DNA of 64,000 nucleotides from Psychrobacillus soli (lineage in GTDB: Bacteria > Bacillota > Bacilli > Bacillales_A > Planococcaceae): positions 168 to 64,167 of the forward strand of contig NZ_VDGG01000012.1 in NCBI RefSeq assembly GCF_006861775.1. The letters are read 5' to 3'. Shown in pieces: positions 4,100 to 56,368 of this stretch (its first letter is position 1; the number at the start of each line of letters is the position of its first letter). Below the pieces are notes generated by a model that saw only the letters and a program-made list of their open reading frames with translations, had not been told where the DNA came from and searched no databases. The position numbers and the translations under genes are program-made.

Positions 4100-4729
4100 A
4101 TGAATGCGTGTCCAGAGCGAATTGTTCACTATATGCATGAATATCTAGATGGTGAGATTAGCCGTGAACATGAGCTTGAACTAAAATCTCATTTGCAGTC
4201 ATGCGTGGATTGTCAGGCGCATATGCATGAGTTAAGCGATGTTGTTGCTTTTGTAAAAGGGGCAGCTCATGTAGAGGCACCAACTAATTTTAGTAATGCC
4301 GTTATGGCGAGACTTCCAAAAGAAAAATCACATGCTGGTGTTAGTAGATGGTTGCGGCGTCATCCCATTCTCACTGCAGCAGCTTTATTCTTTTTATTTA
4401 TGAGCAGTGCATTATTCACCAATTTCAACGAACAGCAACAGTTCTCTTTTACTAAGCAAGAAAATGTTGTAGTGGAAGGTGAAACGGTTATTATCCCCGA
4501 AGGACAAGTCGTAAAGGGGGATTTGGTTGTACGAAACGGTGATGTTCGAATTGATGGAGAGCTAGACGGCAATTTAACCGTCATTAACGGTTCGAAGTAT
4601 ATGGCTTCTACAGCGGTTATTACTGGTAAAACAGAAGAGATTAACGAGGTATTTGACTGGCTTTGGTTTCACATAAAAGATGGTGCAAAAGAAGTTGTGT
4701 CATTTTTTGGAAAAGAAGAAACAAAATAA
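4100..4729 (+). CDS. rsiW: Anti-sigma-W factor RsiW
   Basis: 209-residue membrane anti-sigma factor that holds SigW inactive until proteolysed under envelope stress. The N-terminal zinc-binding anti-sigma domain has the HxxxCxxC signature HLQSCVDC near residues 31-38. A single membrane span follows at about residues 93-110 (ILTAAALFFLFMSSALF), with an extracytoplasmic C-terminal domain. RBS GGAGGGAA precedes ATG 4100. Cotranscribed with sigW and closed by a terminator, so cdaA is only partly coupled. Confidence 0.93.
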   Translation: MNACPERIVHYMHEYLDGEISREHELELKSHLQSCVDCQAHMHELSDVVAFVKGAAHVEAPTNFSNAVMARLPKEKSHAGVSRWLRRHPILTAAALFFLFMSSALFTNFNEQQQFSFTKQENVVVEGETVIIPEGQVVKGDLVVRNGDVRIDGELDGNLTVINGSKYMASTAVITGKTEEINEVFDWLWFHIKDGAKEVVSFFGKEETK

Positions 4730-10989: not shown

Positions 10990-11190
10990 GAAAACAATTA
11001 TAGCGCCAGAGCTGAAGAAATCGGACGAAATGTATCTTCAGCAGACGAGGTGGAGGTTATCGAAAATTCGGCGGATGCCTCCCGACCGTATTTGCCCGGT
11101 TGTTATTCTTTTTCAGAAACCATACGAGTGATTGTATGACAGAGGGGAAAAGAAGGCATTCTTAGCTTAATGAGCGACTGTGAAAAAACA
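10990..11190 (+). promoter_or_regulatory. glmS ribozyme/riboswitch (GlcN6P-responsive)
   Basis: The leader of glmS holds the conserved ribozyme core: AGCGCCAGAGCT at the cleavage site (scission expected between A11002 and G11003), then GACGAGGTGGAGGTTATCGA and TTCGGCGGATGCCTCCCG. Glucosamine-6-phosphate acts as cofactor for self-cleavage, after which the mRNA is degraded, so product represses GlmS synthesis. The 3' boundary (P4 helix) is approximate. Confidence 0.95.
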
Positions 11191-13562: not shown

Positions 13563-14095
13563 CTTTCCATCTTAAAACTAAAGTTAGTAATAGGTAAACG
13601 TTTGAAGTTATCTCCAGCTTTTCCCCTACTCCGCACGGAACGTGACAGTTTCCCGTCATTCCGCGTTCCATCTAGCGATAGTATTATTAATTATAAGTTT
13701 CAAGTTCCTCTTATTGATTTGGGTTATTTGATTATTTCTAGCTCACATTTTTCTCGATATTTATTGATTTTTTTTAACATCGATTCAGTGATGCCCAAAT
13801 TTTTTTGCTCGACAGGACAACTAGCAGCTATGATGTATACATAGGTATTTGACGTGACTTATTTGATCATCATTTCTTTTACCTCTGCCGAATTCAAAAT
13901 ACGTGCAGTAAAAGAGAATCTTATTGTTGAAGGTCCTTCTCATATCTTTACCGAGAATGATTTTTCATTTATAGTATTTTCTATTTGGTATTACGGTGGG
14001 ATTTAAATCGCTTTTTTTATTCTCTAATAAGCAATCTGTAGTTTTTTAAAAAGACTTTACCATTCAAGTGAGACCGTTTTTTTCTTTTATTATAA
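13563..14095. other. Gene-free stretch with a group II intron-like hairpin
   Basis: About 530 bp without a credible gene. At 13637-13669 a hairpin pairs GGAACG with CGTTCC and TGAC with GTCA around AGTTTCCC. Read on the reverse strand (ATGACGGGAAACTGTCAC) it resembles the conserved stem-loop that precedes the reverse-transcriptase ORF in many bacterial group II introns. No RT or maturase coding sequence is seen nearby, so at most a relic. The 80-codon ORF over it (13602-13844) has no recognisable domain and no RBS. Confidence 0.4.
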
Positions 14096-43658: not shown

Positions 43659-45038
43659 TTATAACCAAGCTTTACTTAAAAGCTCTACACCATGCTCTAT
43701 TTCATCATAAGAAAGATTACTAAAACCAAGTTTAATAATTGGTTCAGCAGTATTGTTGTTAATGAAGTAGAGCGAGGTAGGATACACTTTCACTCCGGAT
43801 AAGGAAGCGCGCTCGATTAGCTCTTCTTCCGAATACTTCAAGTGTACTTTTACTAATATGTATAAACCAGATTGCTCGCCAATAATAGATACATGCTTTT
43901 CAAGTTGTTCTTTTAATGCTGATACTATGTGCCGCATTTTTCGTTTATACACAAGACGCATACGTTTAATATGGCGATTCCATTCTCCTTCTTCCATAAA
44001 TTTAGCCATGGTGAGTTGGCTAAGAAGGGAAGAGGTACTCTCAAAGTGATGAAACTGCTGTTTATAACGTTTTAAAAGTGACGGTGGCAACACCATATAG
44101 CTTAATCGGATTCCTGGAAGAAAGGACTTAGAAAAGTTTCCTAGATAAATGACTCTTGTCGAATCAATGGAAGCGAGAGCTGGAAATGGTTGCTGTGTAT
44201 AGCGAAACTCACTATCGTAATCGTCTTCGATAATATATCCATTTATCTTGTTCGCCCAATGGATAAGTATTTGTCGTTGTTGAATGGACATACTGACACC
44301 GATTGGACTGTGATGCGAAGGTGTTACATAGATGACTTGTGATTTCATCTGTTCTATTCTTGAAAAATCAGCTCCTGTTTCATAAACAGGTAAAGTTTCA
44401 AGTGTGAAGCGATGAAATTGAAAAGCTTCTCTAGCACCATCATAGCCAGGATCTTCGACGATAACGCTTGGGAAATCATCCTTTAGTATATGCCCAAGAT
44501 GGATGAGCATTTGTTGAGTACTACTACCGATAATGATGGCATTTGCGTCCGTTTTCACCCCACGAGATTGGAGTAAGTATGTAGCAATTTGCTCACGTAG
44601 GCACACTTCACCAAAGGGGTCCCCATATAGAAAGCTTTCCTGTAACGTTAATGCTTGATTGGAGATTCTCCGCCAAATTTTTAAAGGGAAATTTGCCTTA
44701 TCCACTGCCCCTGCTCGAAAGTCAATGTGGACAGGTGTTATTGACTCTGTTTGCTTTATATTAGGAGCGATTAGTGCTTCTTGGAATAAAATCGGCTCTA
44801 TTTCATTTACAAAATAACCTCTTCTCCCTTCTCCGCGAATATAGCCTTCTGCTACAAGTAAATCATAAGCTGTTAATGTCGTATTGCGACTTACATGGAG
44901 GGATTCTGCAAGCTGTCTAATAGATGGTAATTGCTCATCAGGCAGTATGTCGCCTCGCTCGATAAGTATTTTAAGTTGCTCGTAGATTTGTTTATATTTG
45001 GTGGAGTCTTCGTTAAATGCAAAAATGATGTTCTTCAT
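43659..45038 (-). CDS. MocR/PdxR-type regulator (GntR HTH plus aminotransferase domain)
   Basis: 459-residue regulator. An N-terminal GntR winged helix (LPSIRQLAESLHVSRNTTLT, about residues 35-55) is joined to a PLP aminotransferase-fold domain (about 105-459), with the PLP lysine in LGNFSKSFLPGIRLSY. MocR proteins bind PLP or amino-acid derivatives and often act on a divergent gene. ATG 45038 follows AAAGGAGA. Divergent from paiB, with the 42-bp box between them. A fragment of a close relative lies at 22190-22300. Confidence 0.92.
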   Translation of the reverse strand: MKNIIFAFNEDSTKYKQIYEQLKILIERGDILPDEQLPSIRQLAESLHVSRNTTLTAYDLLVAEGYIRGEGRRGYFVNEIEPILFQEALIAPNIKQTESITPVHIDFRAGAVDKANFPLKIWRRISNQALTLQESFLYGDPFGEVCLREQIATYLLQSRGVKTDANAIIIGSSTQQMLIHLGHILKDDFPSVIVEDPGYDGAREAFQFHRFTLETLPVYETGADFSRIEQMKSQVIYVTPSHHSPIGVSMSIQQRQILIHWANKINGYIIEDDYDSEFRYTQQPFPALASIDSTRVIYLGNFSKSFLPGIRLSYMVLPPSLLKRYKQQFHHFESTSSLLSQLTMAKFMEEGEWNRHIKRMRLVYKRKMRHIVSALKEQLEKHVSIIGEQSGLYILVKVHLKYSEEELIERASLSGVKVYPTSLYFINNNTAEPIIKLGFSNLSYDEIEHGVELLSKAWL

Positions 45039-45050
45039 GAAAATCTCCTT

Positions 45051-45092
45051 TGACATGTTTGATTATTTATAATTGTACCTTTTTAAATGTCA
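45051..45092. promoter_or_regulatory. 42-bp inverted-repeat box (MocR-type operator candidate), paiB copy
   Basis: TGACAT (45051-45056) and ATGTCA (45087-45092) flank AATTGTACCTTTTT, with the same total length as the box upstream of the lysE-type gene. It lies between the divergent MocR and paiB starts, as expected for MocR control of both. Confidence 0.65.
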
Positions 45093-45153
45093 GCTTGTAT
45101 CATACTATTGACTTAGATTGTATAAGCTATTACAAATCAAGGGGGAGTCATTC

Positions 45154-45765
45154 ATGTATATACCTAAGTATTATAAAATAACAGATTTTAATGAAATGAA
45201 AGAATTTGTTCAAAAAAACTCATTTGGAACGATTGTTACAACCAAAAAAGGTAAACCAATCGCTACTCATCTACCTCTGGGATTAAGTGAAAAAGATGGG
45301 GACAACTTTTTAACTGGGCATATGGCTTATGGCAACCCACAATGGAGAACATTCGAAACGAGTGAGGATGTTCTCGTTATGTTCCAAGGACCGCATGCTT
45401 ACATTTCGTCTTCATGGTACGAGCATGAAAATGTTCCAACATGGAATTATCAGGCTGTTCATGTATATGGAACAGCTAGCATTTTGAATGAAGAAGAGTT
45501 AAAACAAGAACTAACAGCAATGCTACACAAATATGAAAAACATCGTGAAAATCCAGTATTATGGGAAAAACTTTCTCCGCAAGTTTTAGAAAAAGAACTA
45601 AAAGGCATCGTTGGTTTTAAAATTAAAATACAAGAAGTTCAAGCTGCCTATAAATTAAGTCAAAATCGTAATGAGAAGGACTATCTTAATATCGTTCATA
45701 AACTCCAGGAGGAAGAAGATGTAAGTTCTCAACAAATGGCAAAAGTGATGAAAGGGAGAGTGTAA
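45154..45765 (+). CDS. paiB: FMN-binding negative transcriptional regulator PaiB
   Basis: 203-residue PaiB/Pai2-type split-barrel flavin protein: MYIPKYYKITDFNEMKEFVQ start, FGTIVTTKKGKPIATHLPLG and YISSSWYEHENVPTWNYQAV signatures, helical C-terminus. In B. subtilis PaiB with PaiA reduces sporulation and protease expression; its biochemical role is uncertain. ATG 45154 follows AAGGGGGAG. Intact here, while two other copies in the window are broken. Divergent from a MocR gene rather than beside paiA. Confidence 0.92.
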   Translation: MYIPKYYKITDFNEMKEFVQKNSFGTIVTTKKGKPIATHLPLGLSEKDGDNFLTGHMAYGNPQWRTFETSEDVLVMFQGPHAYISSSWYEHENVPTWNYQAVHVYGTASILNEEELKQELTAMLHKYEKHRENPVLWEKLSPQVLEKELKGIVGFKIKIQEVQAAYKLSQNRNEKDYLNIVHKLQEEEDVSSQQMAKVMKGRV

Positions 45766-45941
45766 CGTCCTGTGTCGCAAAAAATTCAATACAGGATAGT
45801 ATTAACCATTTTGCTATAGGAGTTTGTCTCCCTTGAATAGTTAACTTTCAATAGTCGAAATATTCAAATGTTTACCTCGTTTATATGGTAAAATGATTGA
45901 AGTAAATGATACGGGAAGTTAGTGAAAAAGGAGAGATGAAA

Positions 45942-46319
45942 ATGGGATTTTTAGATGGTTTAATGGGAAATGCATCAGAGGTAGAACTGGATAAAGTCGA
46001 AAAAGAGTTAAAGGATTTACTAGTTTCTACTGAAAAAGTAGAACATGCGTATAAGCTTATTCGAGATTTATTTGTTTTCACAGATAAACGACTATTGCTC
46101 ATCGACAAGCAAGGAATGACTGGTAAGAAAGTAGAATATCACTCCATTCCATACAAAAGTGTCGTCCATTTTTCGATTGAAACAGCGGGAACTTTAGACT
46201 TAGATGCTGAATTGAAAATTTGGTTATCTGGAAGTGCGATACCGATTCAAAAGAAATTCAACAAATCATTGAATATTTATAAAGTGCAAAGTGTATTAGC
46301 GGCATATGTTTTGAAATAA
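45942..46319 (+). CDS. PH domain-containing protein (bPH type, YvlB/YyaB-like)
   Basis: 125-residue protein with a bacterial PH-like fold: GFLDGLMGNASEVELDKVEK start, LFVFTDKRLLLIDKQGMTGK core strand-turn-strand, KVEYHSIPYKSVVHFSIE and the C-terminal helix. No catalytic residues; function unknown. ATG 45942 is placed behind AAAGGAGAG; an ATG at 45936 is too close to it. Monocistronic, followed by a GC-rich hairpin. Confidence 0.82.
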   Translation: MGFLDGLMGNASEVELDKVEKELKDLLVSTEKVEHAYKLIRDLFVFTDKRLLLIDKQGMTGKKVEYHSIPYKSVVHFSIETAGTLDLDAELKIWLSGSAIPIQKKFNKSLNIYKVQSVLAAYVLK

Positions 46320-46351
46320 GTACGTAGGTAAAAAGACAAATAAGAAGGCTC

Positions 46352-46378
46352 GGCGTTCGCCCGTAAGAAGCGAACGCC
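46352..46378. terminator. GC-rich hairpin between convergent genes
   Basis: GGCGTTCGC / GCGAACGCC perfect 9-bp stem, without a strong T tract on either side. Terminator role is likely by position but not certain. Confidence 0.5.
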
Positions 46379-46409
46379 AATGTACTAAATAGTAACGGTA
46401 CAGTAAGCT

Positions 46410-47171
46410 TCAAACAAACACATGAATATCATGCTTCTCATACTTTTCAAGTACCGGCTGACTAATATTTGAGTCAGTAATGATGCCATCTACACTTTTC
46501 AAGTCTCCGATTTTAAGCATTGCCACAGAGTCAAATTTTGTATGATCTGCTACGACGAACACTTTTCTAGCATTCCGATACATTGCCATTTTTACCTCGT
46601 ATTCGCCATCCCCATAATCAGTTAATCCTTTTTCTAAAGAAATTCCACTCACACTCATGAAAAAAGTATCGATATTAAACTTTTCGATATAAGAAACGCA
46701 AGAACCTCCTACGATACATAGCTCAGAATTCCTAATTTTCCCACTTGGTAAATACACATTAAAATTTGGATTTTCACATAAAATCGTTGCAATAATAATA
46801 GAGTTTGTAATGATCGACAAAGAGTGGAAGCTTTGTACAAGCTCCTTGGCGATTTCTGTATTCGTTGTACTGACATCTAATGCTACGAAGTTTCCTTCTT
46901 TTACAAATTGTACAGCGTGGCTAGCAATCAGTTTTTTCTCTTCGATATTGACAGCTTCTCGAATAGTGAAATTCGTTTCTTCTATAATAGTATGTTTTAA
47001 AATGGCACCCCCGTGGACTCGTTCGATTTCTCCTAACTGTTCTAAATGCTCCAAATCACGTCTAATTGTTTCCTGGGTCACATCTAGCAAACTACTTAAA
47101 TACACTACTTTTACTGATTTCTTTTCATTTAAATAATTTAATATGTGTTGATAGCGCTCGTTTTTCAACAT
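46410..47171 (-). CDS. DeoR family regulator of the ABC/PHP/HAD operon
   Basis: 253-residue regulator. The N-terminal DeoR helix-turn-helix contains VVYLSSLLDVTQETIRRDLE (about residues 22-41) followed by LGEIERVHGGA. The C-terminal sugar-phosphate-isomerase-like sensor has ALDVSTTNTEIAKEL and FVVADHTKFD. DeoR sensors bind phosphorylated sugars. Divergent from the uptake operon, so it most likely controls it through the repeats in between. Confidence 0.92.
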   Translation of the reverse strand: MLKNERYQHILNYLNEKKSVKVVYLSSLLDVTQETIRRDLEHLEQLGEIERVHGGAILKHTIIEETNFTIREAVNIEEKKLIASHAVQFVKEGNFVALDVSTTNTEIAKELVQSFHSLSIITNSIIIATILCENPNFNVYLPSGKIRNSELCIVGGSCVSYIEKFNIDTFFMSVSGISLEKGLTDYGDGEYEVKMAMYRNARKVFVVADHTKFDSVAMLKIGDLKSVDGIITDSNISQPVLEKYEKHDIHVFV

Positions 47172-47231
47172 ATAATCCCTCGATTCTTCTAAAGCAATTA
47201 TCTATTACTATAAACAAATATCAAATAAATA

Positions 47232-47358
47232 AAAAGAATAAACAACAAATCAAATGATTATTTACACTATATTTACAATAAATCTTTAATTGTATTTACA
47301 ATTGTTCTGTATTATTTGATTTGAGAGATGAAAACGAAGAAAAACAAAAGAATAAACA
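47232..47358. promoter_or_regulatory. Repeat-rich operator region between deoR and ABC operon
   Basis: TATTTACA occurs three times in the same orientation at 47259, 47270 and 47293 (spacings 11 and 23 bp, about one and two helical turns). A 14-mer AAAAGAATAAACAA brackets the region at about 47232 and 47345. DeoR proteins bind phased direct repeats of this kind. Confidence 0.5.
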
Positions 47359-47387
47359 AATAAATTCAAAAGCAGGTGCGAGCAATT

Positions 47388-48476
47388 GTGAAGAAAATTT
47401 CATTGAAAAATATCACTAAGCAATATGATACCAATCAAGAAAAGATTCTAGAAAACTTTAATCTAGATATTTATGATAAGGAATTTATCGTCTTAGTTGG
47501 ACCTTCAGGATGTGGGAAATCAACCACTTTACGAATGATTGCCGGATTAGAAAGCATCACTTCCGGAGAACTATCGATCAATGAGCAAGTGATGAATGAT
47601 GTACCTTCTAAGGATCGCGGCATTGCAATGGTATTTCAAAACTACGCACTTTTCCCGCATTTAACGGTGTTTGATAATATTGCATTCGGTTTGAAAATTA
47701 GAAAAGAAGATAAAAAAGTCATAAAGGAAAGAGTAGAGGAGACGGCTGCGAAGCTAGGGCTCACAAATTATTTAAAACGAAAACCTAAAGATTTATCTGG
47801 AGGACAAAGACAGCGTGTTGCCTTAGGAAGAGCGATCGTGCGTAATACGAATATTTTCTTAATGGATGAGCCGCTATCAAATTTAGATGCAAAGCTTCGT
47901 ATTCAAATGCGAGAGGAGATTATTCAACTACATAACCAATTAGGTACAACAACTGTTTACGTAACGCATGATCAAACGGAAGCAATGACGATGGCGTCTC
48001 GCATTGTTGTACTAAAAGATGGAGCAATTCAACAAGTTGGAACGCCACATGAAGTATATATGCATCCTGCCAATATGTTTGTAGCGAGTTTTATAGGTTC
48101 ACCAACTATAAACTTTTTAACAGTTAAAGTAACTTCTCACGCATTAAAGATAGATGAGCAGAAAATTGTCGAAATGCCACTTGATAACAGTACGCCAAAT
48201 GAAATTATTATTGGTGTTCGACCGGAGGATATCGAACTTGTGAGTGAACCAGATGCGATTAAATTGACTATTCATCGTGTAGAAATGATGGGAGCAGATA
48301 AATATGTGTACGGAGAAATAATGGGGCAAAAGTTGACAGTTCGTGTGCATAACGAATTGGATATTCAATCCAAGCAACATTTGCACATTAAACTAAACCC
48401 TCGAAAAGTACATCTGTTTGAAAAAGAAACAGGTAAGGCTATCGAAACGTTTGTTAAAGATACGGTGGTGGTATAA
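47388..48476 (+). CDS. ABC transporter ATP-binding protein (UgpC/MalK type)
   Basis: 362-residue sugar-type ATPase. Walker A GPSGCGKSTT is near residue 38, signature DLSGGQRQRVALGRAI near 131, Walker B FLMDEPLSNLDAKLR near 154, and a C-terminal TOBE/MalK regulatory domain (about 235-362, IIGVRPEDIEL). It energises the two permeases downstream. GTG 47388 has AGGTG nine bases upstream; GTG 47376 overlaps it and was rejected. Confidence 0.93.
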   Translation: MKKISLKNITKQYDTNQEKILENFNLDIYDKEFIVLVGPSGCGKSTTLRMIAGLESITSGELSINEQVMNDVPSKDRGIAMVFQNYALFPHLTVFDNIAFGLKIRKEDKKVIKERVEETAAKLGLTNYLKRKPKDLSGGQRQRVALGRAIVRNTNIFLMDEPLSNLDAKLRIQMREEIIQLHNQLGTTTVYVTHDQTEAMTMASRIVVLKDGAIQQVGTPHEVYMHPANMFVASFIGSPTINFLTVKVTSHALKIDEQKIVEMPLDNSTPNEIIIGVRPEDIELVSEPDAIKLTIHRVEMMGADKYVYGEIMGQKLTVRVHNELDIQSKQHLHIKLNPRKVHLFEKETGKAIETFVKDTVVV

Positions 48477-48478
48477 CG

Positions 48479-49351
48479 GTGGACCGTTTAAAAGGTTATG
48501 GCAAAATACTTTTCTTTGTAGGGATTCCGTTAGTTCCATTACTTGCATTTTGGTTCATCCCGATGTTCGTATCTCTTTGGTTAAGTACAACTGACTGGGA
48601 TTATATTAGCCCTGAGTTTAATCACGTTATGCTAGAAAACTATCAAACGATATTAACGAGCGGAAATTTCTATGCCGCATTAAAAAACACTGCATTCTTC
48701 AGTGTCATGACAGTGATCCCGACGATTATTTTCGGTCTTGTATTTGCAGCTTTACTGAAAAAAGTGATGAAAGGATCCACTCTATTTAAGTCATTGTTAT
48801 TCTCGCCGTGGATTACACCAATGGTTGCGATGTCGATTGTGTGGACGTGGATTTTTCAGCCGGATGTTGGTTTATTGAACCAAATACTTGGTTGGTTTCA
48901 TTTGCCTCAGCCCTCTTGGTTAACTGATTCGAATACGGCTATGTGGGCAATTATTATCGTCACTATTTGGAAGAATGCTGGATGGGCAATGCTTTTCTAT
49001 GCAGATGCATTGTCTAAAATTCCGAATGAACTGTATGAAGTAGGGAAAATGGAAGGAACTTCATGGTGGCAAAATAGTAAGTATATAACCATTCCTTTAG
49101 TTTCGCCTACGACTTTATTTTTAGTTATTATTTCGCTTATTGACGCGATACAAGCTTACGATCAAATTCAAGTGATGACACAAGGTGGTCCAGCAGGTAG
49201 TACGAGAACGCTGTTGTACTTGTATTACCAAATGGCATTTGAGCAGTTTAATATGGGACAGGCTACAGCCTTATCCACCATTATCGTTATATTAACTGGT
49301 GTACTTGCTTTTTTACTGTTCTATACGTCGAAAAAATGGGTTCATTATTAA
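48479..49351 (+). CDS. ABC transporter permease (UgpA/MalF type)
   Basis: 290-residue permease with six hydrophobic helices and the inner-membrane EAA loop in YEVGKMEGTSWWQNSKYITI followed by PL. It pairs with the next gene as the transmembrane dimer of a sugar or glycerol-phosphate uptake system. GTG start 2 bp after the ATPase stop, translationally coupled. Confidence 0.92.
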   Translation: MDRLKGYGKILFFVGIPLVPLLAFWFIPMFVSLWLSTTDWDYISPEFNHVMLENYQTILTSGNFYAALKNTAFFSVMTVIPTIIFGLVFAALLKKVMKGSTLFKSLLFSPWITPMVAMSIVWTWIFQPDVGLLNQILGWFHLPQPSWLTDSNTAMWAIIIVTIWKNAGWAMLFYADALSKIPNELYEVGKMEGTSWWQNSKYITIPLVSPTTLFLVIISLIDAIQAYDQIQVMTQGGPAGSTRTLLYLYYQMAFEQFNMGQATALSTIIVILTGVLAFLLFYTSKKWVHY

Positions 49352-49365
49352 AGGGGGCGAAGGGT

Positions 49366-50205
49366 ATGCAACAAACTTTTAATAGATCCAAATCGGTATT
49401 TCGGTATGCCTTCCTCATTGTTTTCAGCTTAATGATGGTATTTCCACTTATATGGATGATATTAAGTTCGTTAAAAACGACGGAAGAAATTTTTGCTGTA
49501 CCTATTACGCTTTTCCCGGAAACGCTACAATGGGGTAATTTCTCTGGTGCATTAGAGATGGCACCTTTTTGGTTGTATATGTTCAATAGTGCGTTTACTT
49601 CGATTTGTATCGTTATTCTTCAAGTAGTTTTGTCTAGCATGATTGCTTATGCATTAACGCAGTTGAAGTTTAAAGGAAAGTCGTTATTATTCAACTCTAT
49701 TCTCATCACATATATGCTGCCAGCAGCGGCTACGTATGTTCCGAGTTATATATTGCTCTCTAAAATGGGTTTACTAGATTCATTGACAGGAATTGTTGTT
49801 TCCAACGTCGCAAGTGTCTTTACGATTTTCTTACTGCGGCAAGCTTTTATGCAAGTGCCGAAAGAGATGATTGAGGCGGCTCGTTCAGAAGGTGCAAACG
49901 ACTTTGCAGTTTTAACTAAAGTGATGATCCCAATGTGTAAATCAACTATTTTTATTGCTGGTTTAATAGGGTTTGTATCGATGTATAACAATTACTTATG
50001 GCCATCTTTAATCGTAAAAAGTGAGGATAAGTATTTAATCACTGTTGGGCTTAACCGATTTTTCACAAACGTAGGATCTTTCGCCGATACATGGCCTTTC
50101 ATAATGGCAGCAAATGTTTTAACTGTCGTACCACTTTTACTATTATTTGTACTTCTAAACAAGTGGTTTATAAAAGGTATTAGTGATAGCGGCTTAAAAG
50201 GATAA
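49366..50205 (+). CDS. ABC transporter permease (UgpE/MalG type)
   Basis: 279-residue permease with six helices and the EAA loop EMIEAARSEGANDFAVLTKV followed by MIPM. ATG 49366 follows AAAGGGGGCGAAGGG; the upstream frame has no RBS. Partner of the preceding permease. Confidence 0.92.
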   Translation: MQQTFNRSKSVFRYAFLIVFSLMMVFPLIWMILSSLKTTEEIFAVPITLFPETLQWGNFSGALEMAPFWLYMFNSAFTSICIVILQVVLSSMIAYALTQLKFKGKSLLFNSILITYMLPAAATYVPSYILLSKMGLLDSLTGIVVSNVASVFTIFLLRQAFMQVPKEMIEAARSEGANDFAVLTKVMIPMCKSTIFIAGLIGFVSMYNNYLWPSLIVKSEDKYLITVGLNRFFTNVGSFADTWPFIMAANVLTVVPLLLLFVLLNKWFIKGISDSGLKG

Positions 50206-50227
50206 AAAACAAAAAGGAGTGTTTCAA

Positions 50228-51535
50228 ATGAAGAAGAATCTATTATTTGCTATTATCGTGTCGGCATTATTGATGATATTAGCAGCGTGTTCAAGTAAAA
50301 GCGAGGAAGGCAGTACAGGAACAGCAAGTGAATCATCTGGTCCAACTACCATTGAGTTTTGGTATGGTCTTGGTAGTGAAGCAGATCTAAAAATGAAAGA
50401 AATTATCGATGGGTTTAATAAATCCCAAGATGAAGTAATCGTGAAAGCAGTGCCTCAAGCAAGCTATTCGGAAACATATCAAAAGCTACAAGCAGCAATT
50501 GCAGCGAAGGATGCACCGGGTTTATTCATCACAGGGTCTAGTTCACTTGTAGATTTAGCGAGTAAATCAGCATTAGCACCGTTAAATAAGTATGCAAGTG
50601 AAGATAGCATTTACGATAAAGAAGATTTCTTAGATGTATTTATCGATGCTGCTTATATTGGTGACGAGTTATATGCATTACCAGCTTATGGGTCAACACA
50701 AGTGATGTATTTTAGAAAAGATATTTATGAACAAGCAGGGATGGATCCAAAAGAAGTATTTGCGTCTTGGGAAAACGTAGCAGAAGCATCTAAAAAGTTA
50801 CAAGCACAAGGTGTAGTAGAGTATGGTCATTTACCGATGTGGGGTAGCGGAAACTTAATAGATATCGCTTTGAGTAATGGCGGAGAAATTATTAGTGAAG
50901 ATGGAAAAGAAGTATTAATTGATAGCGATGCATGGGTGGATGCTTGGGAATTTATTCGTAAGCAAATTCACGAAGAAAAAACGATGAAAGTTAACTCTGG
51001 TGGACAGGGCTGGGAATATTGGTATAAAACAATCGACGAAGTATTGGCAGGTAAAGCAGCTGGATACACTGGTTCATCAGGAGATAAAGGTGATCTCGAC
51101 TTTACGGTTATTGACTCCATCCCACAACCAGGTTTAAACGGTAATGCAGCAGCCCCTACCGTAGGTGCATTGTTTATGGCTGTTCCAGCGGTTAATAGCG
51201 ATGAAGAAATTGCAGCGGCATATAAATTTATGAGCTATTTCTCGAGTAGCGAAGTGAATGTGGATTGGGCTGAACATATTGGGTATATTCCAGTTCGTGA
51301 ATCTGCAATGGAAGTACCTGAATATGCAGCGTTTATCGAGGAAAACCCTTATGCAGGAATACCATATAAACAAGCATTGACTGGTTCACCAGATTTCGTA
51401 GATCCAACTGGCGGTAAAATTGTTGATGCAATCTCCATTGCAGCAGACAAAGTAGAACTTCAAAATGTTTCCGTAGAAGAAGCATTAAAAGAAGCGAAGA
51501 AAGTAGCGCAAGAAGCGTTAGATGAACTGAACTAA
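50228..51535 (+). CDS. Extracellular solute-binding lipoprotein (family 1)
   Basis: 435-residue lipoprotein with signal peptide ending in lipobox LAAC (about residues 21-24), then a serine/glycine/glutamate-rich linker and a type I binding fold (STIEFWYG-like TTIEFWYGLGSEADLKMKEI and ALPAYGSTQVMYFRKDIYEQ). It captures the ligand outside the membrane for the two permeases. Resembles UgpB-type glycerol-3-phosphate binders, but no ligand residues can be assigned. RBS AAAGGAGTG. Confidence 0.92.
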   Translation: MKKNLLFAIIVSALLMILAACSSKSEEGSTGTASESSGPTTIEFWYGLGSEADLKMKEIIDGFNKSQDEVIVKAVPQASYSETYQKLQAAIAAKDAPGLFITGSSSLVDLASKSALAPLNKYASEDSIYDKEDFLDVFIDAAYIGDELYALPAYGSTQVMYFRKDIYEQAGMDPKEVFASWENVAEASKKLQAQGVVEYGHLPMWGSGNLIDIALSNGGEIISEDGKEVLIDSDAWVDAWEFIRKQIHEEKTMKVNSGGQGWEYWYKTIDEVLAGKAAGYTGSSGDKGDLDFTVIDSIPQPGLNGNAAAPTVGALFMAVPAVNSDEEIAAAYKFMSYFSSSEVNVDWAEHIGYIPVRESAMEVPEYAAFIEENPYAGIPYKQALTGSPDFVDPTGGKIVDAISIAADKVELQNVSVEEALKEAKKVAQEALDELN

Positions 51536-51556
51536 AAAATAGGGCAGGGTGAGTGC

Positions 51557-52975
51557 ATGATACAAAATACGATCAAGCTGGAACTAATGGATGATACAAG
51601 CGAAAGAGTGATTCATAATACATTTACATTCGATGTTTCAGAGAATATACAATCTATCGGTCTACAACTATATCATCGAGAAAGTATTTGGGGCACTTAT
51701 TTAGTATACGATCCGACCGGGCAATTACGCGCACAATATGTTACAGGTAAAACACCACAACCAATTGTTATTCATGAACAAATGGAAGGGACAAGTCCTT
51801 ATACAACGGCCGGATCTATTTCAGTAGGTACATGGACAATCGAAGTAATTGCTACTGTTGCTAATAAGGAAAATATAGAAAAACCTTTTATAGAGGTGCA
51901 ATTCGATACGGAAAGAACAGATCGATCGACAAATGAGTTGTATTGGAATGAAATGGCTGGTAATCCAGAGCGAATCGTACAGAACGAGGCTAGATGGTAC
52001 AAAGGTGATTTTCATACGCATACCATTTATTCGGACGGTCAAATGACGAGAGAAGAAAATATGGCAAGTGCGAAAAACCAACAATTAGATTTCTTTGTTG
52101 CGACCGATCACAATATCGTGCCAACTTCTTGGGTAAATGATACATCAGTGCTGGTATTACCGGGGATAGAAGTAACTGCACCATTAGGGCATTTCAATAT
52201 TTTGAATACAAATTGTTCCCCGTTCGAGGATTGTCATCTAGGGGATATGCTGACAGAACAAGGCATGAATAATATTATTGCTGGGCAATATGGAAACGCG
52301 CTAATTTCGATTAATCATCCATTTTTAACGGAATGGAAATGGCTGTTTAACGATACGCCATTAAATAAAGTAGATACGTTAGAAGTTTGGAATGATCCGA
52401 CGTATGGATACAATCCACAGGCGACGGAATGGGCATTAATTGCTTGGGACATGCTGTTAAAAGACGGTCATCGTATTACCGGAATTGGTGGTTCAGATTC
52501 ACATTTGAAACCTGAAGAACGCTATGAAGGTAGTGAAGAAGCTTCTCTTATCGGTGATCCTGGCACATTCGTATACTGTGAAGGGCTGTCTGTTACGAAT
52601 CTTATAACAGCAGTGAAACAGGGACATGTTGTCGTTTCAAGAGGTGAAAAAATTAGCTGCCAACTGGAACAATTCATAGCTGGCGATCAATGTGATAGGT
52701 CGACAGGTGAAATAAAAGTAAGTATCGATACAAATGAAGCCATTGAAATAGAATGGGTTGTGGATGGTGAGGTTGTATCGAAAATAATGGATAATCACGC
52801 GAGCTATCTATTCAATTGGAGCGACGATGCTTACCATTATATTCGAGTGAATGTACGAAGAGCAGACGGTACACTTTATGGGTTTACAAATCCAATTTAC
52901 TTTAACGATAAGAACCCATCCCTTCATACATGGGGACAACTTCTAGAGCTTATGAAGGAGCATGTGCATGATTAA
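51557..52975 (+). CDS. PHP domain hydrolase (CehA/McbA family)
   Basis: 472-residue protein. An N-terminal beta-rich domain (about residues 1-145) precedes a PHP-type metal-dependent phosphoesterase domain. Metal ligands are visible in GDFHTHTIYSDGQ (H153, H155), FFVATDHN, GIEVTAP and ISINHPF, with GGSDSH further on. Such enzymes cleave phosphoesters or carbamates. No signal peptide, so cytosolic. It sits between the binding protein and a HAD phosphatase, suggesting it processes the imported compound. RBS AGGGTGAG. Confidence 0.85.
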   Translation: MIQNTIKLELMDDTSERVIHNTFTFDVSENIQSIGLQLYHRESIWGTYLVYDPTGQLRAQYVTGKTPQPIVIHEQMEGTSPYTTAGSISVGTWTIEVIATVANKENIEKPFIEVQFDTERTDRSTNELYWNEMAGNPERIVQNEARWYKGDFHTHTIYSDGQMTREENMASAKNQQLDFFVATDHNIVPTSWVNDTSVLVLPGIEVTAPLGHFNILNTNCSPFEDCHLGDMLTEQGMNNIIAGQYGNALISINHPFLTEWKWLFNDTPLNKVDTLEVWNDPTYGYNPQATEWALIAWDMLLKDGHRITGIGGSDSHLKPEERYEGSEEASLIGDPGTFVYCEGLSVTNLITAVKQGHVVVSRGEKISCQLEQFIAGDQCDRSTGEIKVSIDTNEAIEIEWVVDGEVVSKIMDNHASYLFNWSDDAYHYIRVNVRRADGTLYGFTNPIYFNDKNPSLHTWGQLLELMKEHVHD

Positions 52976-53678
52976 AGGTATTTTGTTTGATAAAGATGGG
53001 ACATTAATCGAGTTCAATAGCTTATGGATTGAGTCCACTTACGAATTTTTAGAAAGTATTACCCGAATTCATAACCAGGAAGAAAAATTAGAGGAACTTG
53101 CCTACAAAGTAGGATTAGAAGGCAAAACAGTTCGCGAAGACAGCGCGCTTGCTGGAAAAACATCAGTCGATTTAGCGGAAATTATTAGTGATATGTTAAA
53201 GGTAGATTGTGAAGAAATCTTAAAAGAATTGGATCGCTTTTACTATGAGAAGGTAAAAGAAAAACCTGAAAACATCAAACCTGTTTGTGATTTACAACAG
53301 CTATTTGCGCAGTTAAAATCAAACGGCTTAAAAATTGGTATTGTGACTGCTGATAACTATGATGTGACAAAATTTATTCTCGACATGCTTAAGCTAACGG
53401 AGCAAGTGGATTTTATTGCGACGGCTGATCTATATGATAAAAAACCAAATATAGAAGCACTGCAAGTGTTTTGTGACGAACAAAATTTGCAACTAGATGA
53501 AGTGATTCATATTGGAGATACATCGATTGACATGGAATTTTCCAAGCATTGTTGTTATGGAGTTGGTGTCCTCACAGGCATAGGCACGAAACCAGCATTA
53601 TTAAAATATACTCCCTATGTGTTGAATAATGTTGCGGAATTAATTAATCAAGACGGAGAGTTATCACTTCCGGCTTGA
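52968..53678 (+). CDS. HAD-superfamily phosphatase
   Basis: 236-residue HAD hydrolase of the phosphoglycolate-phosphatase type. Motif I FDKDGTLIEF, motif II GIVTADN, motif III lysine in DKKPN, motif IV HIGDTSIDMEF are all present. It removes phosphate from a small molecule. ATG 52968 follows AAGGAG inside the PHP gene; the genes overlap by 8 bp. Last gene of the operon, before a perfect terminator. Confidence 0.9.
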   Translation: MIKGILFDKDGTLIEFNSLWIESTYEFLESITRIHNQEEKLEELAYKVGLEGKTVREDSALAGKTSVDLAEIISDMLKVDCEEILKELDRFYYEKVKEKPENIKPVCDLQQLFAQLKSNGLKIGIVTADNYDVTKFILDMLKLTEQVDFIATADLYDKKPNIEALQVFCDEQNLQLDEVIHIGDTSIDMEFSKHCCYGVGVLTGIGTKPALLKYTPYVLNNVAELINQDGELSLPA

Positions 53679-53682
53679 ATGA

Positions 53683-53718
53683 AAGCTGTTAAACCTAGCT
53701 AGGTTTAACAGCTTTTTA
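53683..53718 (+). terminator. ABC/PHP/HAD operon terminator
   Basis: Perfect 15-bp stem AAAGCTGTTAAACCT / AGGTTTAACAGCTTT with T tail, right after the HAD stop. Confidence 0.93.
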
Positions 53719-53862
53719 TGTTCTTTTGTGTCACACAAAGTTAGAAGCGATTCAAAATAGTGGTGACTGAGTTGCTGTGCGTAAATCAAGGGACACTTAT
53801 CTTTTTTGTCTATGGAATATGCTATAAACAATAGAAGATAAGGAGAGTCGTATAGTGAGGTT

Positions 53863-54297
53863 ATGAAGCGTCGCAGGTCTCGACAGCAGGATGGTAACGA
53901 TACATCCGTCTATGTTATGGGAGCGGTAAGGCAAAAACAAAAGTTGAACCAACATGAAAATAAAAAGGAAAAAGAAACTTACCAACAGATAGGTGTTGGA
54001 AAATATTTCCGTCAATCCAGTCGTTACATTTTGAATTATCGATTACTCGGCTATCAGTTTTTTCAGCCTTATTATGATAAAAGCTATGATGAAATTAACC
54101 TTCCACCGTCCTGATTTAATACACCAGAAAATATGATCCTCAATTATTTCAGCATTTTACGGGAAGCTGAAAACCTAACAAGCCAACTTACTGGAGGTTG
54201 CGGTACAGTCGGAGAGGCTAGGATCCAGGTTTTAACCTTATTCTTACAGTTGAAGGAGGGCGAAGGACAGACAAACGCCATAAGATTATCGAAAAAA
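53863..54297 (+). pseudogene. Unknown gene with an in-frame TGA
   Basis: A basic, Gln/Lys-rich start (MKRRRSRQQDGNDTSVYVMG) leads to QIGVGKYFRQSSRYILNYRL and YYDKSYDEINLPPS. A TGA (54112-54114) follows, and the same frame continues FNTPENMILNYFSILREAEN, then LTSQLTGGCGTVGEARIQ. A TGG Trp codon would make it continuous. No start RBS is convincing and no family recognised. The 3' end blurs near the hairpin at 54298. Decayed gene is the likely explanation. Confidence 0.5.
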
Positions 54298-54335
54298 GAG
54301 AGGTTGGTCGTGACGTCAGTCATGACCAGCCTCTC
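54298..54335. other. Strong 17-bp hairpin
   Basis: GAGAGGTTGGTCGTGAC / GTCATGACCAGCCTCTC with loop GTCA; two G·U pairs, no T tract. Could be a structured RNA, a terminator without tail, or a protein-binding palindrome. It overlaps the distal part of a relic ORF. Confidence 0.55.
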
Positions 54336-54760
54336 TCCGAAATCACTCGGTAATGATATAGCATCAAGTTTGTCCAAAGCCCTCCGAAAATGATGGAAAC
54401 AGGTTTTGAACTTAAATGGCGCTTAAGCTTTTCTTATAATAATTTTTGTTCAGGTGATTTTATAAGCGTAGCTGTTTCTATTATTGGAATCTCTCCATTC
54501 ATGCGTTCTCCTGATATTTCCTCAAGAATCGTGTGAAAGTTATACAAATGCTACTTCATGAGTCCCCTTTCTCCGAAGTTTTCCCCAACTTACTCACAAA
54601 TTATTATTCTGGACTATTTATCCACTCAGTTGTCGAAAAAAATCACATAACTTATACACTGCTTATCCCCAATTCATGTATAACTATAGCGTAATGTTTA
54701 TCCTCATCATTTAAGGGAAATTACTTGATAAGCAAATGCTAAAAGGAGAGGGTATGTTTT
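54336..54760. other. Gene-poor stretch before pyruvate-oxidase-like gene
   Basis: About 425 bp without ORFs of interest. The right half carries the DnaA-box-like cluster (separate entry) and the RBS AAAAGGAGAGGG of the next gene. Confidence 0.6.
54540..54706 (+). promoter_or_regulatory. Cluster of DnaA-box-like 9-mers
   Basis: Same-orientation matches to TTATCCACA: TTATCCACT (54618), TTATACACT (54652), TTATCCCCA (54663), TTATCCTCA (54698), plus TTATACAAA (54540). Start spacings 34, 11 and 35 bp suggest helical phasing. It resembles chromosomal DnaA-box clusters that bind DnaA outside oriC. No dnaA or rep gene is nearby. Confidence 0.45.
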
Positions 54761-56368
54761 ATGGATAAAACTGTTGCTGAAGTAATACTGGATCAATTGT
54801 CACTTTTAGGAGTCAAGCGTATTTACGGCGTCGTTGGAGATGCAATTATAGGGCTGTTGGATGCAATGGCCAAACAGGACAGGATTGAGTTTATTCCTGT
54901 GAAACATGAATCTGTCGCAGCATTCATGGCTTCTGCTGAGGCTAAGTTGACGGGGAAGCTTGCGGTATGCACAGCTACAATGGGACCAGGAGCAGCTAAT
55001 CTACTAAATGGTCTTGGAGATGCTTATTCAGATAAAGCTCCTGTCCTAGCGATTACCGGTCAGGCACCACGCAATAAAATAGGCACAGATTATCAACAGT
55101 ATGTGGATCAACAGGAACTTTTCAAGCCATTTGCTACTTACTCAGCAAATCTTGCAAGTGAGGATGCTATAGTGGATCTACTTCAAAAGGCTGCTCAAAC
55201 ATCGCTTCAGCAGCGTGCCGTCACACATCTGTCTATACCAAAAGATTTGTTCCAGGTAAAGACAGATGCGAAAGCTCGTGCACTGCCGACAGTAATAGAA
55301 GGAACAGCCTCTTTTCAAACGGAAGATTTAAAAGAAGTGGCGGCAGTGATGAAAACAGCAAAAAAACCAATTATTCTTGCCGGAGCAGGAGCGAAAAAGG
55401 CAGCTTCTTCTGTGGAAGAACTCGCTGAAACCTGGGGAGCGGGTATTCTCACCAGCTTGGGTGGCAAAGGACTGTTTCAAGAATCTACGTCATCTCTTCT
55501 TCAAGGAATTGGAGAAGGGGGAAATCCTCATGCAGCCGAAGTTTTTAAACAAGCTGATGTTGTCCTTCTTGTGGGAGTGACTTGGTGGCCAGAGGGGTAC
55601 GTGCCTAATAATGCTCGAATTATTCAAATTGACACCCACTTCGCAACTGCCCATAAAGGAATTCCAACGGAGCTTGGGGTCAATGGTAAAGCAGAGCAAG
55701 TGGTCCCACTTTTGCTACAAAGTTTAGAAGGTCATCAAAAGAATGCTGCATGGAACACTCAAATAGAGGAAGCAAAAGTAAAATGGGCTGCCCAAAATGA
55801 GGAGGAAGGTCAGATTACTGGTTCGCCTATCCATCCATCTCGTATAGTTCGAGCAATTGAACGAACGGTCGCAGAAGATGCGGTACTTACATTGGATACA
55901 GGAGATATAACGGTATGGATGAACCGCAATTTTCGTCAAATTCAGCAGTCTGTTCTATTTTCAGGTTATTGGCGCTCGATGGGTTTCGGCCTTCCAGCGG
56001 CTATCGCGGCAAAGCTTGTGCAGCCTGAAAAACAAGTCATCGCCATAGTTGGAGATGGAGGGCTTCAGATGACGCTTGCCGATCTCTTAACTGCAACTCG
56101 CTATAACCTAGACATTACGGTTCTGGTTTTTAATAACGGGTCCCTACAAATGGAAAGTGACAAAATCCAAGCGGCCGGAGATAGGGAACTGGGAACGCAA
56201 TTGACTAACCCAGATTTTGTACAAGTAGCTGAAGCATGTGGATGGACAGGATTCCGCGCCGATACGGATAGTGAATTAGAATCGATTCTCGAAGATGCTA
56301 TCCGAACTACTGGTCCAGTATTAGTCGATATCTACACAGCACAGGCATTTTTTCCAGAAACAGAGTGA
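54761..56368 (+). CDS. Pyruvate oxidase-like TPP-dependent enzyme
   Basis: 535-residue thiamine-diphosphate enzyme of the POX/AHAS family. The N-terminal Pyr domain has the activating Glu in VKHESVAAFMASAEAKLTGK. Middle FAD-type domain covers about residues 190-320. The C-terminal PP domain shows the GDG...N motif in IVGDGGLQMTLADLLTATRY then VLVFNN. It probably decarboxylates pyruvate or another 2-oxoacid. Pyruvate oxidase (PoxB-like) is favoured over acetolactate synthase because no small subunit is present. The ATG at 54761 follows AAAAGGAGAGGG. Confidence 0.85.
   Translation: MDKTVAEVILDQLSLLGVKRIYGVVGDAIIGLLDAMAKQDRIEFIPVKHESVAAFMASAEAKLTGKLAVCTATMGPGAANLLNGLGDAYSDKAPVLAITGQAPRNKIGTDYQQYVDQQELFKPFATYSANLASEDAIVDLLQKAAQTSLQQRAVTHLSIPKDLFQVKTDAKARALPTVIEGTASFQTEDLKEVAAVMKTAKKPIILAGAGAKKAASSVEELAETWGAGILTSLGGKGLFQESTSSLLQGIGEGGNPHAAEVFKQADVVLLVGVTWWPEGYVPNNARIIQIDTHFATAHKGIPTELGVNGKAEQVVPLLLQSLEGHQKNAAWNTQIEEAKVKWAAQNEEEGQITGSPIHPSRIVRAIERTVAEDAVLTLDTGDITVWMNRNFRQIQQSVLFSGYWRSMGFGLPAAIAAKLVQPEKQVIAIVGDGGLQMTLADLLTATRYNLDITVLVFNNGSLQMESDKIQAAGDRELGTQLTNPDFVQVAEACGWTGFRADTDSELESILEDAIRTTGPVLVDIYTAQAFFPETE

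Follow-up and report, generated by a model that had tools for sequence, protein, structure and literature searches.

We analysed a 64,000-nucleotide stretch of Psychrobacillus soli DNA (contig NZ_VDGG01000012.1; hereafter the window), taken from a 4.2 Mb draft genome, in which a DeoR-type repressor gene stands divergent from an operon encoding an ABC importer, a PHP hydrolase and a HAD phosphatase. We lean slightly towards the view that this operon imports a choline phosphodiester, most likely glycerophosphocholine (GPC), which would be dismantled in the cytosol by the PHP enzyme and then by the HAD enzyme. We are fairly confident that the substrate is a phosphodiester and we favour one that bears choline, whilst GPC in particular is a tentative choice that falls just short of even. 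In the proposed mechanism, a lipoprotein would bind the phosphodiester outside the cell and a UgpABCE-like transporter would import it. A metal-dependent PHP enzyme would cut it in the cytosol and the HAD enzyme would remove the phosphate from the resulting monoester. A route through phosphocholine to choline, glycerol and inorganic phosphate is favoured because the HAD partner would then be needed to free choline, whereas glycerol-3-phosphate (G3P) would feed metabolism directly. DeoR would keep the operon repressed until a phosphorylated product builds up. In related operons a GbsR/CudC repressor would sense the choline product, and an SMR or MATE pump would expel surplus quaternary amine. 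The operon and its regulator are laid out as follows:

46410..47171, minus strand: DeoR-family repressor, divergent from the operon (PF00455, 161 bits; PF08220, 57.7 bits)
47376..48476, plus strand: UgpC-type ABC ATPase (NF008653, 485.8 bits, cut-off 432); likelier start, by eye, GTG at 47388
48479..49351, plus strand: ABC permease, UgpA-like (PF00528; UgpA equivalog missed at 114.3 bits, cut-off 335)
49336..50205, plus strand: ABC permease, UgpE-like (PF00528; UgpE equivalog missed at 146.6 bits, cut-off 297); likelier start, by eye, 49366
50219..51535, plus strand: substrate-binding lipoprotein (SBP; SBP_bac_8/1) with a putative lipid-anchor Cys24; likelier start, by eye, 50228
51557..52975, plus strand: CehA/McbA-type PHP hydrolase, proposed phosphodiesterase (NF038032, 193 bits, cut-off 80)
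52962..53678, plus strand: HAD phosphatase, proposed phosphomonoesterase (PF13419/HAD_2, 81.7 bits, above the cut-off); likelier start, by eye, 52968
53681..53716, plus strand: intrinsic terminator at the operon end (16-pair stem with 5 G-C pairs, T-rich tail)

The two-step scheme is best supported by the replacement of the PHP enzyme by other phosphoesterases. In a survey seeded with the SBP, a close SBP (1e-60) was found in 38 of 398 Bacilli genomes. PHP (E<=1e-30) adjoins it in only eight of these; the other 30 are 25 genomes of family f3, whose members are Paenibacillus-like, and five of family f22. We opened 11 of the 25 f3 loci and two of the five f22 loci, and a tblastn search with PHP queries drawn from across the census found PHP (1e-5) in none of the 13. 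By the same method, every one of the 11 f3 loci holds a homologue of the calcineurin-like phosphoesterase of locus L103, a HAD gene and a CudC gene, and ten hold an SMR gene, L104 being the exception. Pfam searches confirmed the PF00149 domain for nine of these enzymes (L103, L099, L100, L102, L104, L105, L107, L110 and L111); the calcineurin-like assignment of L101 and L106 is based on 58-68% identity. Both f22 loci have a Pfam-confirmed PF01663 type I phosphodiesterase, of the alkaline-phosphatase superfamily, between the ATPase and a permease, together with a phosphonatase-like HAD. A HAD-superfamily gene is therefore kept in all 13 PHP-less loci that were opened. In the SBP tree, from which L106 was left out as it was missed by the gene caller, the ten f3 rows form a starred subclade whose sister is L047, a locus with PHP and CudC; L043, L046, L071 and L075, each of which has PHP, make up the rest of a starred clade of 15.

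Judging from these sequences, three unrelated hydrolase folds appear to have served beside one transporter clade, and the simplest activity common to them would be phosphodiester hydrolysis. The PHP protein is probably a phosphodiesterase, because calcineurin-like or PF01663 enzymes replace it beside the same transporter while the HAD is kept. PHP itself is exchangeable; its activity is seemingly not. It had been predicted that an imported phospho-compound is stripped in two steps, and the occupation of the PHP position by two unrelated phosphoesterase folds supports this. The name CehA/McbA might instead suggest that the PHP protein hydrolyses a carbamate or an aryl ester, and it does match NF038032. 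Yet this model is a broad one of the 'domain' type, and with the phosphoesterase replacement and the recurrent HAD partner we consider such an activity extremely improbable. The PDB matches of the PF01663 enzymes (ENPP1/ENPP2) and of the PF00149 enzymes (Rv0805/Icc) are weak, and we name no substrate for either group.

The census was seeded with PHP. Species genomes (GTDB) were scanned with alignment-derived patterns, which gave 234 PHP relatives, and the best 80 were kept. Genes were called mechanically with a minimum of 90 amino acids and took their labels from BLAST comparisons with window or seed proteins, a procedure that misses split or GC-rich genes; the 13 f3 and f22 loci were rechecked by tblastn. 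In 72 of the 80 loci the same SBP is no more than three genes away from PHP, and in 66 a HAD gene is also near, directly after PHP in 63 of them. The pairing of PHP with this transporter, which the original prediction called the least familiar system of the window, is thus a common one. The expectation that both enzymes are conserved with the transporter held in this direction of the survey; in the SBP-seeded direction PHP is usually missing, but all 13 of the PHP-less loci opened have another phosphoesterase and a HAD. The SBP loci without a labelled HAD nearby are L011, L034, L039, L045, L080 and L090, and in L011 a HAD is present at the 5' end of the locus. Carriers include Bacillaceae, Paenibacillaceae, Clostridium, gut-type Lachnospiraceae, Peptoniphilus, Streptococcus and Periweissella. 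Inter-locus distances, compared for operon genes only in 62 loci, correlate with r of 0.89 for SBP and PHP, 0.86 for PHP and HAD and 0.81 for SBP and PermA. Within the window's own family a PHP relative (1e-10) occurs in 9 of 261 genomes, its own genome counted, and at 1e-30 in 10 of 398 sampled Bacilli genomes; such a patchy distribution fits horizontal spread or loss.

Eight of the 80 PHP relatives are without this transporter (L017, L025, L035, L040, L042, L057, L066 and L078). Some of these loci adjoin, by eye, sulfatase-like or GH2-like (glycosidase) genes, and L025 has a GDPD-like gene that scores under the model cut-off, so that the roles of the PHP family seem to be wider. PHP relatives are also found on Vibrio and Haladaptatus plasmids. 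In L085 PHP is present in two pieces or copies, in L020 the SBP is in two reading frames, and in L073 PHP is placed ahead of the permeases.

The operon neighbours point to choline as the head group, for which the original prediction gave no name. A GbsR/CudC-type repressor adjoins PermA in the f3 operons and in L047, L071 and L075, and lies directly 3' of PHP in L011, L015 and L016 (253.6, 266.3 and 248.4 bits with NF047500, cut-off 218). In all, such a regulator adjoins 16 related operons, and a seventeenth, L106, by tblastn. L011, L015 and L016 fall in a starred SBP clade of ten rows, the others being the window and six DeoR operons. The starred branches of the SBP tree, which carries one label per locus with CudC taking precedence over DeoR, require the CudC label to change at least twice. 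This suggests at least two recruitments of choline-type GbsR/CudC repressors to these operons, one of them in the window's own clade, and we infer that the window operon may share the substrate of its CudC-linked sisters. PMC6207618 describes a cluster of aromatic residues that is typical of the GbsR-family members associated with choline/betaine and missing from the other GbsR groups. The pattern [DN]-[FY]-[FY]-x-x-F-x-x-[FY]-[FY], mapped by eye onto the aromatic cage described there, is kept in 16 of 16 operon-linked regulators aligned. Among the f3 genomes listed with at least one CudC-like match, all 25 that have the SBP show two matches and each of the 11 others shows one.

The pumps point in the same direction. 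In 72 loci, with relatedness ignored, SMR genes make up 15 of 138 immediate neighbours and 2 of the 601 genes at a distance of at least three places; the corresponding counts are 12 and 2 for MATE and 6 and 0 for CudC. The SMR genes adjoin operons of Bacillus-type genera, Paenibacillus, Streptococcus and Lachnospiraceae, at differing operon ends, and form a tandem pair after HAD in L093 and L094. Four SMR proteins were scored; their best models are Qac, EmrE or Ebr and every cut-off was missed. Their cargo may be choline or a related amine: EmrE was reported to export glycine betaine (PMC13300293, citing Bay and Turner 2012). A TetR gene upstream in f22 was also considered as BetI, but the match is weak (78.5 bits, cut-off 201.3) and was not used. 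The only CudC/GbsR-like match (1e-30) of the window's own genome lies elsewhere, at L112:9435-12315 (G000:C2), and is divergent from what by eye is an OpuA-type glycine betaine importer, which is the OpuAR arrangement described in PMC6207618.

The binding protein bears on the phosphodiester itself. Its Cys24 is invariant in 52 rows and its AlphaFold2 model has a pLDDT of 92.5. The best structural row for this model is 6r1b, the Mycobacterium tuberculosis UgpB with GPC (Z 42.6, root-mean-square deviation 2.7 over 383 residues, 22% identity), and the second is a dinucleotide-binding protein. As far as the model goes, the fold match is consistent with phosphodiester binding and does not discriminate it from sugar binding. 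The phosphate-coordinating Tyr/Ser/Ser/Tyr positions of UgpB were defined in PMC12718374 and were transferred by us from Phaeobacter to Escherichia coli numbering. In an alignment that held no sugar-binder control, Y83, S286 and Y356 are each kept in 86 of 86 rows, and position 159 is Ser or Thr in all 86 (Ser in the window SBP, Thr in 81). These positions support the prediction that the imported compound is a phosphodiester or is otherwise phosphorylated, whereas the ligand and the enzyme activities are proposals. Of the UgpB Trp pair, W208 is kept (Trp in 72 rows, Tyr in 14) and its partner is S210. An aromatic stretch, W265-E-Y267-W268-Y269, is mostly absent from E. coli UgpB and is strongly conserved here, with W265 and W268 in 86 of 86 rows and Y267 and Y269 in 84.

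Several results weigh against GPC, or against choline altogether. The CudC-like regulators of L103, L047 and L071 score 172.5, 164 and 187.6 bits, below the cut-off of 218. CudC occurs in only 6 of the 72 PHP-type operons, and the window operon has no adjoining CudC, SMR or MATE gene. SMR and MATE pumps are promiscuous, and the MATE rows belong to one clade, so that they represent fewer independent events than their count. Elsewhere the GbsR family includes regulators whose signal is glycine betaine or even sulfate (PMC6207618). For the binding protein, oligosaccharide binders tie with UgpB in the fold comparison, within 1 Z. The UgpB equivalog cut-off of 411 is missed at 86.4 bits, as are those of UgpA and UgpE. 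The glycerol contacts of E. coli UgpB, E89, G307 and R397, align with G106, A317 (Ala in 72 of 86 rows) and S406, the alignment near R397 being uncertain; the loss of these contacts would speak against a UgpB-like grip on glycerol.

These points bear on three other explanations. One option is a general scavenger of glycerophosphodiesters or glycerol phosphate like E. coli ugpBAECQ, with PHP replacing UgpQ and choline as one of several head groups. The ATPase passes the UgpC model, the only Ugp subunit model over its cut-off, the best NCBIfam row of every transporter subunit is a Ugp model, and the E. coli operon carries a phosphodiesterase gene, ugpQ; M. tuberculosis UgpB binds further glycerophosphodiesters beyond GPC (PMC8603345). 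However, the residues by which UgpB contacts glycerol are lost and the CudC linkage points to quaternary amines, and we regard this option as unlikely. Another is a choline phosphodiester without glycerol, e.g., a phosphocholine-decorated sugar or a teichoic-acid fragment. It would account for a lost glycerol site next to a kept phosphate site, for the choline-linked neighbours and for the conserved aromatic stretch of the SBP. Yet no labelled glycan-processing gene is found in the conserved set, in which some neighbours are unannotated, and free GPC is a common soluble choline phosphodiester; we consider this explanation quite unlikely. The third is a sugar importer, with PHP and HAD acting on a carbohydrate ester or a sugar phosphate, as the tie of this CUT1-type SBP with oligosaccharide binders and the transporter-less PHP loci near sulfatase-like or glycosidase-like genes might suggest. 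The exchange of PHP for PF00149 or PF01663 enzymes with the transporter kept, together with the choline-type regulators, argues against it and makes it very unlikely in our view.

Import of GPC can be extended to a wider scheme, in which species across the Bacillota would mine choline phosphodiesters, GPC or a related compound, by one transporter clade and a phosphodiesterase slot filled by three unrelated folds, keeping phosphate and glycerol, sensing the released choline by GbsR-type repressors in some lineages and ejecting the surplus by dedicated SMR or MATE pumps. As a whole we hold this to be doubtful.

Comparison with known systems places the operon close to, though not within, the Ugp group. 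E. coli ugpBAECQ, for uptake of G3P and glycerophosphodiesters, likewise has a CUT1 importer with the same subunit types and a phosphodiesterase gene in the operon, and the UgpB phosphate-site residues are kept in the window SBP. It differs in that its phosphodiesterase, UgpQ, is a GDPD in place of PHP, and the window operon has an extra HAD, DeoR control and an SBP in which the glycerol-site residues are lost. By analogy, the operon may work like ugp with ugpQ, but we do not class it as UgpABCE because the UgpB, UgpA and UgpE cut-offs are missed and the glycerol-site residues differ. The M. tuberculosis UgpABCE is alike in that its GPC-bound binding protein is the best structural row, and unlike in the low identity and in the equal fold scores of sugar binders; we know of no PHP or HAD partner for it. 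The choline-responsive GbsR/OpuAR systems of Bacillus resemble the related operons in the CudC/GbsR-type regulator with its aromatic stretch, but there the regulator controls gbsAB or Opu importers (PMC6207618) and the window uses DeoR; 'ugp' occurs 0 times in the main text of that paper. Finally, Sb-PDE of Sphingobium TCM1, as described in PMC5460133, is a PHP-domain phosphodiesterase held to act before a separate monoesterase, and we liken it to the window PHP by this description. Unlike the window PHP, Sb-PDE carries a signal peptide, and its substrates are haloalkyl phosphate diesters (same source).

Choline phospholipids yield GPC when they are broken down. If our proposal is true, the operon would be a route by which soil and gut bacteria scavenge a common membrane-lipid leftover; it would give a function to many proteins of the CehA/McbA PHP type and a possible physiological role to the adjoining SMR pumps. 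Its occurrence in gut-type Lachnospiraceae, Peptoniphilus, Streptococcus and many bacilli makes it a concrete candidate GPC importer. In the sections we could consult, GPC is said to enter mitis-group streptococci via transporters not yet identified (PMC6805115), and GPC conversion by gut bacteria is discussed with no bacterial GPC importer named (PMC13209640). Three Streptococcus records in our census carry the operon, and their names place none of them in the mitis group. A search of the open-access literature, outside which most subscription papers lie, gave no description of the operon, which is weak evidence of novelty; the gene set is widespread yet apparently uncharacterised.

The PHP protein belongs to the CehA/McbA group by its NF038032 score, its PHP fold and an invariant set of H, D and E residues; it has no Pfam match at 1e-3 and, by eye, no signal peptide. 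Its predicted structure (pLDDT 94.1) shows three domains, in place of the two predicted earlier: an N-terminal beta-sandwich (~1-135; best structural row 9ues_B, Z 9.7 over 95 residues), the catalytic domain (~146-362; 3e38, Z 19.7, and 2anu, Z 18.8) and a fibronectin-III-like domain (~364-450; Z 8.7 to 3pdg). With the sequence alone no PDB chain was found at E<=0.01, but a profile search did find matches to the PHP core. H153, H155, D160, H185, E205, H254, D314 and H316 are invariant in 52 rows, and from other PHP enzymes we take them to be candidate metal ligands. In the HAD protein, pattern matching found the DxDGT motif I in 58 of 62 relatives and the GD motif IV in all 62. Its matches are otherwise generic, the best being PpaX and phosphoglycolate-phosphatase models under their cut-offs.

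A second, distant cluster is found in the same genome at L092:2821-13228 (G000:C70). One run of genes there encodes a UgpC-like ATPase, UgpA/E-like permeases and a 563-amino-acid binding protein along with a PHP relative (25% identity), a PF00149 phosphoesterase, a DeoR-like regulator and a MATE-like pump, so that PHP and a calcineurin-like enzyme co-occur there. Similar runs are seen in L095, L096 and partly L097.

The DeoR repressor has both the HTH_DeoR and the DeoRC sensor domains by Pfam, and all 10 NCBIfam models listed for it are missed at their cut-offs. Divergent DeoR genes 83% and 80% identical stand in L093 and L094, the window's closest relatives. As a member of this family, the repressor would sense a phosphorylated product. 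The divergent region contains a 19-nucleotide direct repeat in two copies:

47227..47245, plus strand: direct repeat copy 1, candidate DeoR operator
47341..47359, plus strand: direct repeat copy 2, candidate DeoR operator

Its core, AAAAGAATAAACAA, is exact at 47232 and 47346 and has one mismatch at 4711, and 0.19 matches with at most one mismatch are expected in the window. These two exact copies are candidate operators only, because the repeat was not found in the intergenic regions of L093 and L094.

The gene arrangement agrees with what had been predicted. Coordinates and family models place DeoR divergent from six tightly packed genes of the named families, with ABC_tran and TOBE_2 domains in the ATPase and BPD_transp_1 in both permeases. 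The terminator is the only plus-strand terminator-like site listed in 45500-54500, and the PHP and HAD genes overlap by 14 bases as called, or by ~8 if HAD uses the ATG of its relatives. By eye, several true starts are probably 6-30 bases 3' of the mechanical starts. This arrangement is more than chance, as its order recurs across Bacillota. Promoter-like matches were not above shuffles (31 found, 31.9 expected) and no promoter is claimed.

Downstream of the terminator, two short open reading frames (53863-54393) precede a gene at 54761 that reads as pyruvate oxidase-like, and an imperfect inverted repeat is seen by eye near 54300-54340. A divergent MocR/GntR-type regulator and a PaiB-like protein, also by eye, occupy 43659-45765. 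Elsewhere the window contains a 5S rRNA and six tRNAs (140-1374), a minus-strand match to a group II intron (13584-13668, 50.2 bits) and a glmS ribozyme (10991-11163, 111 bits).

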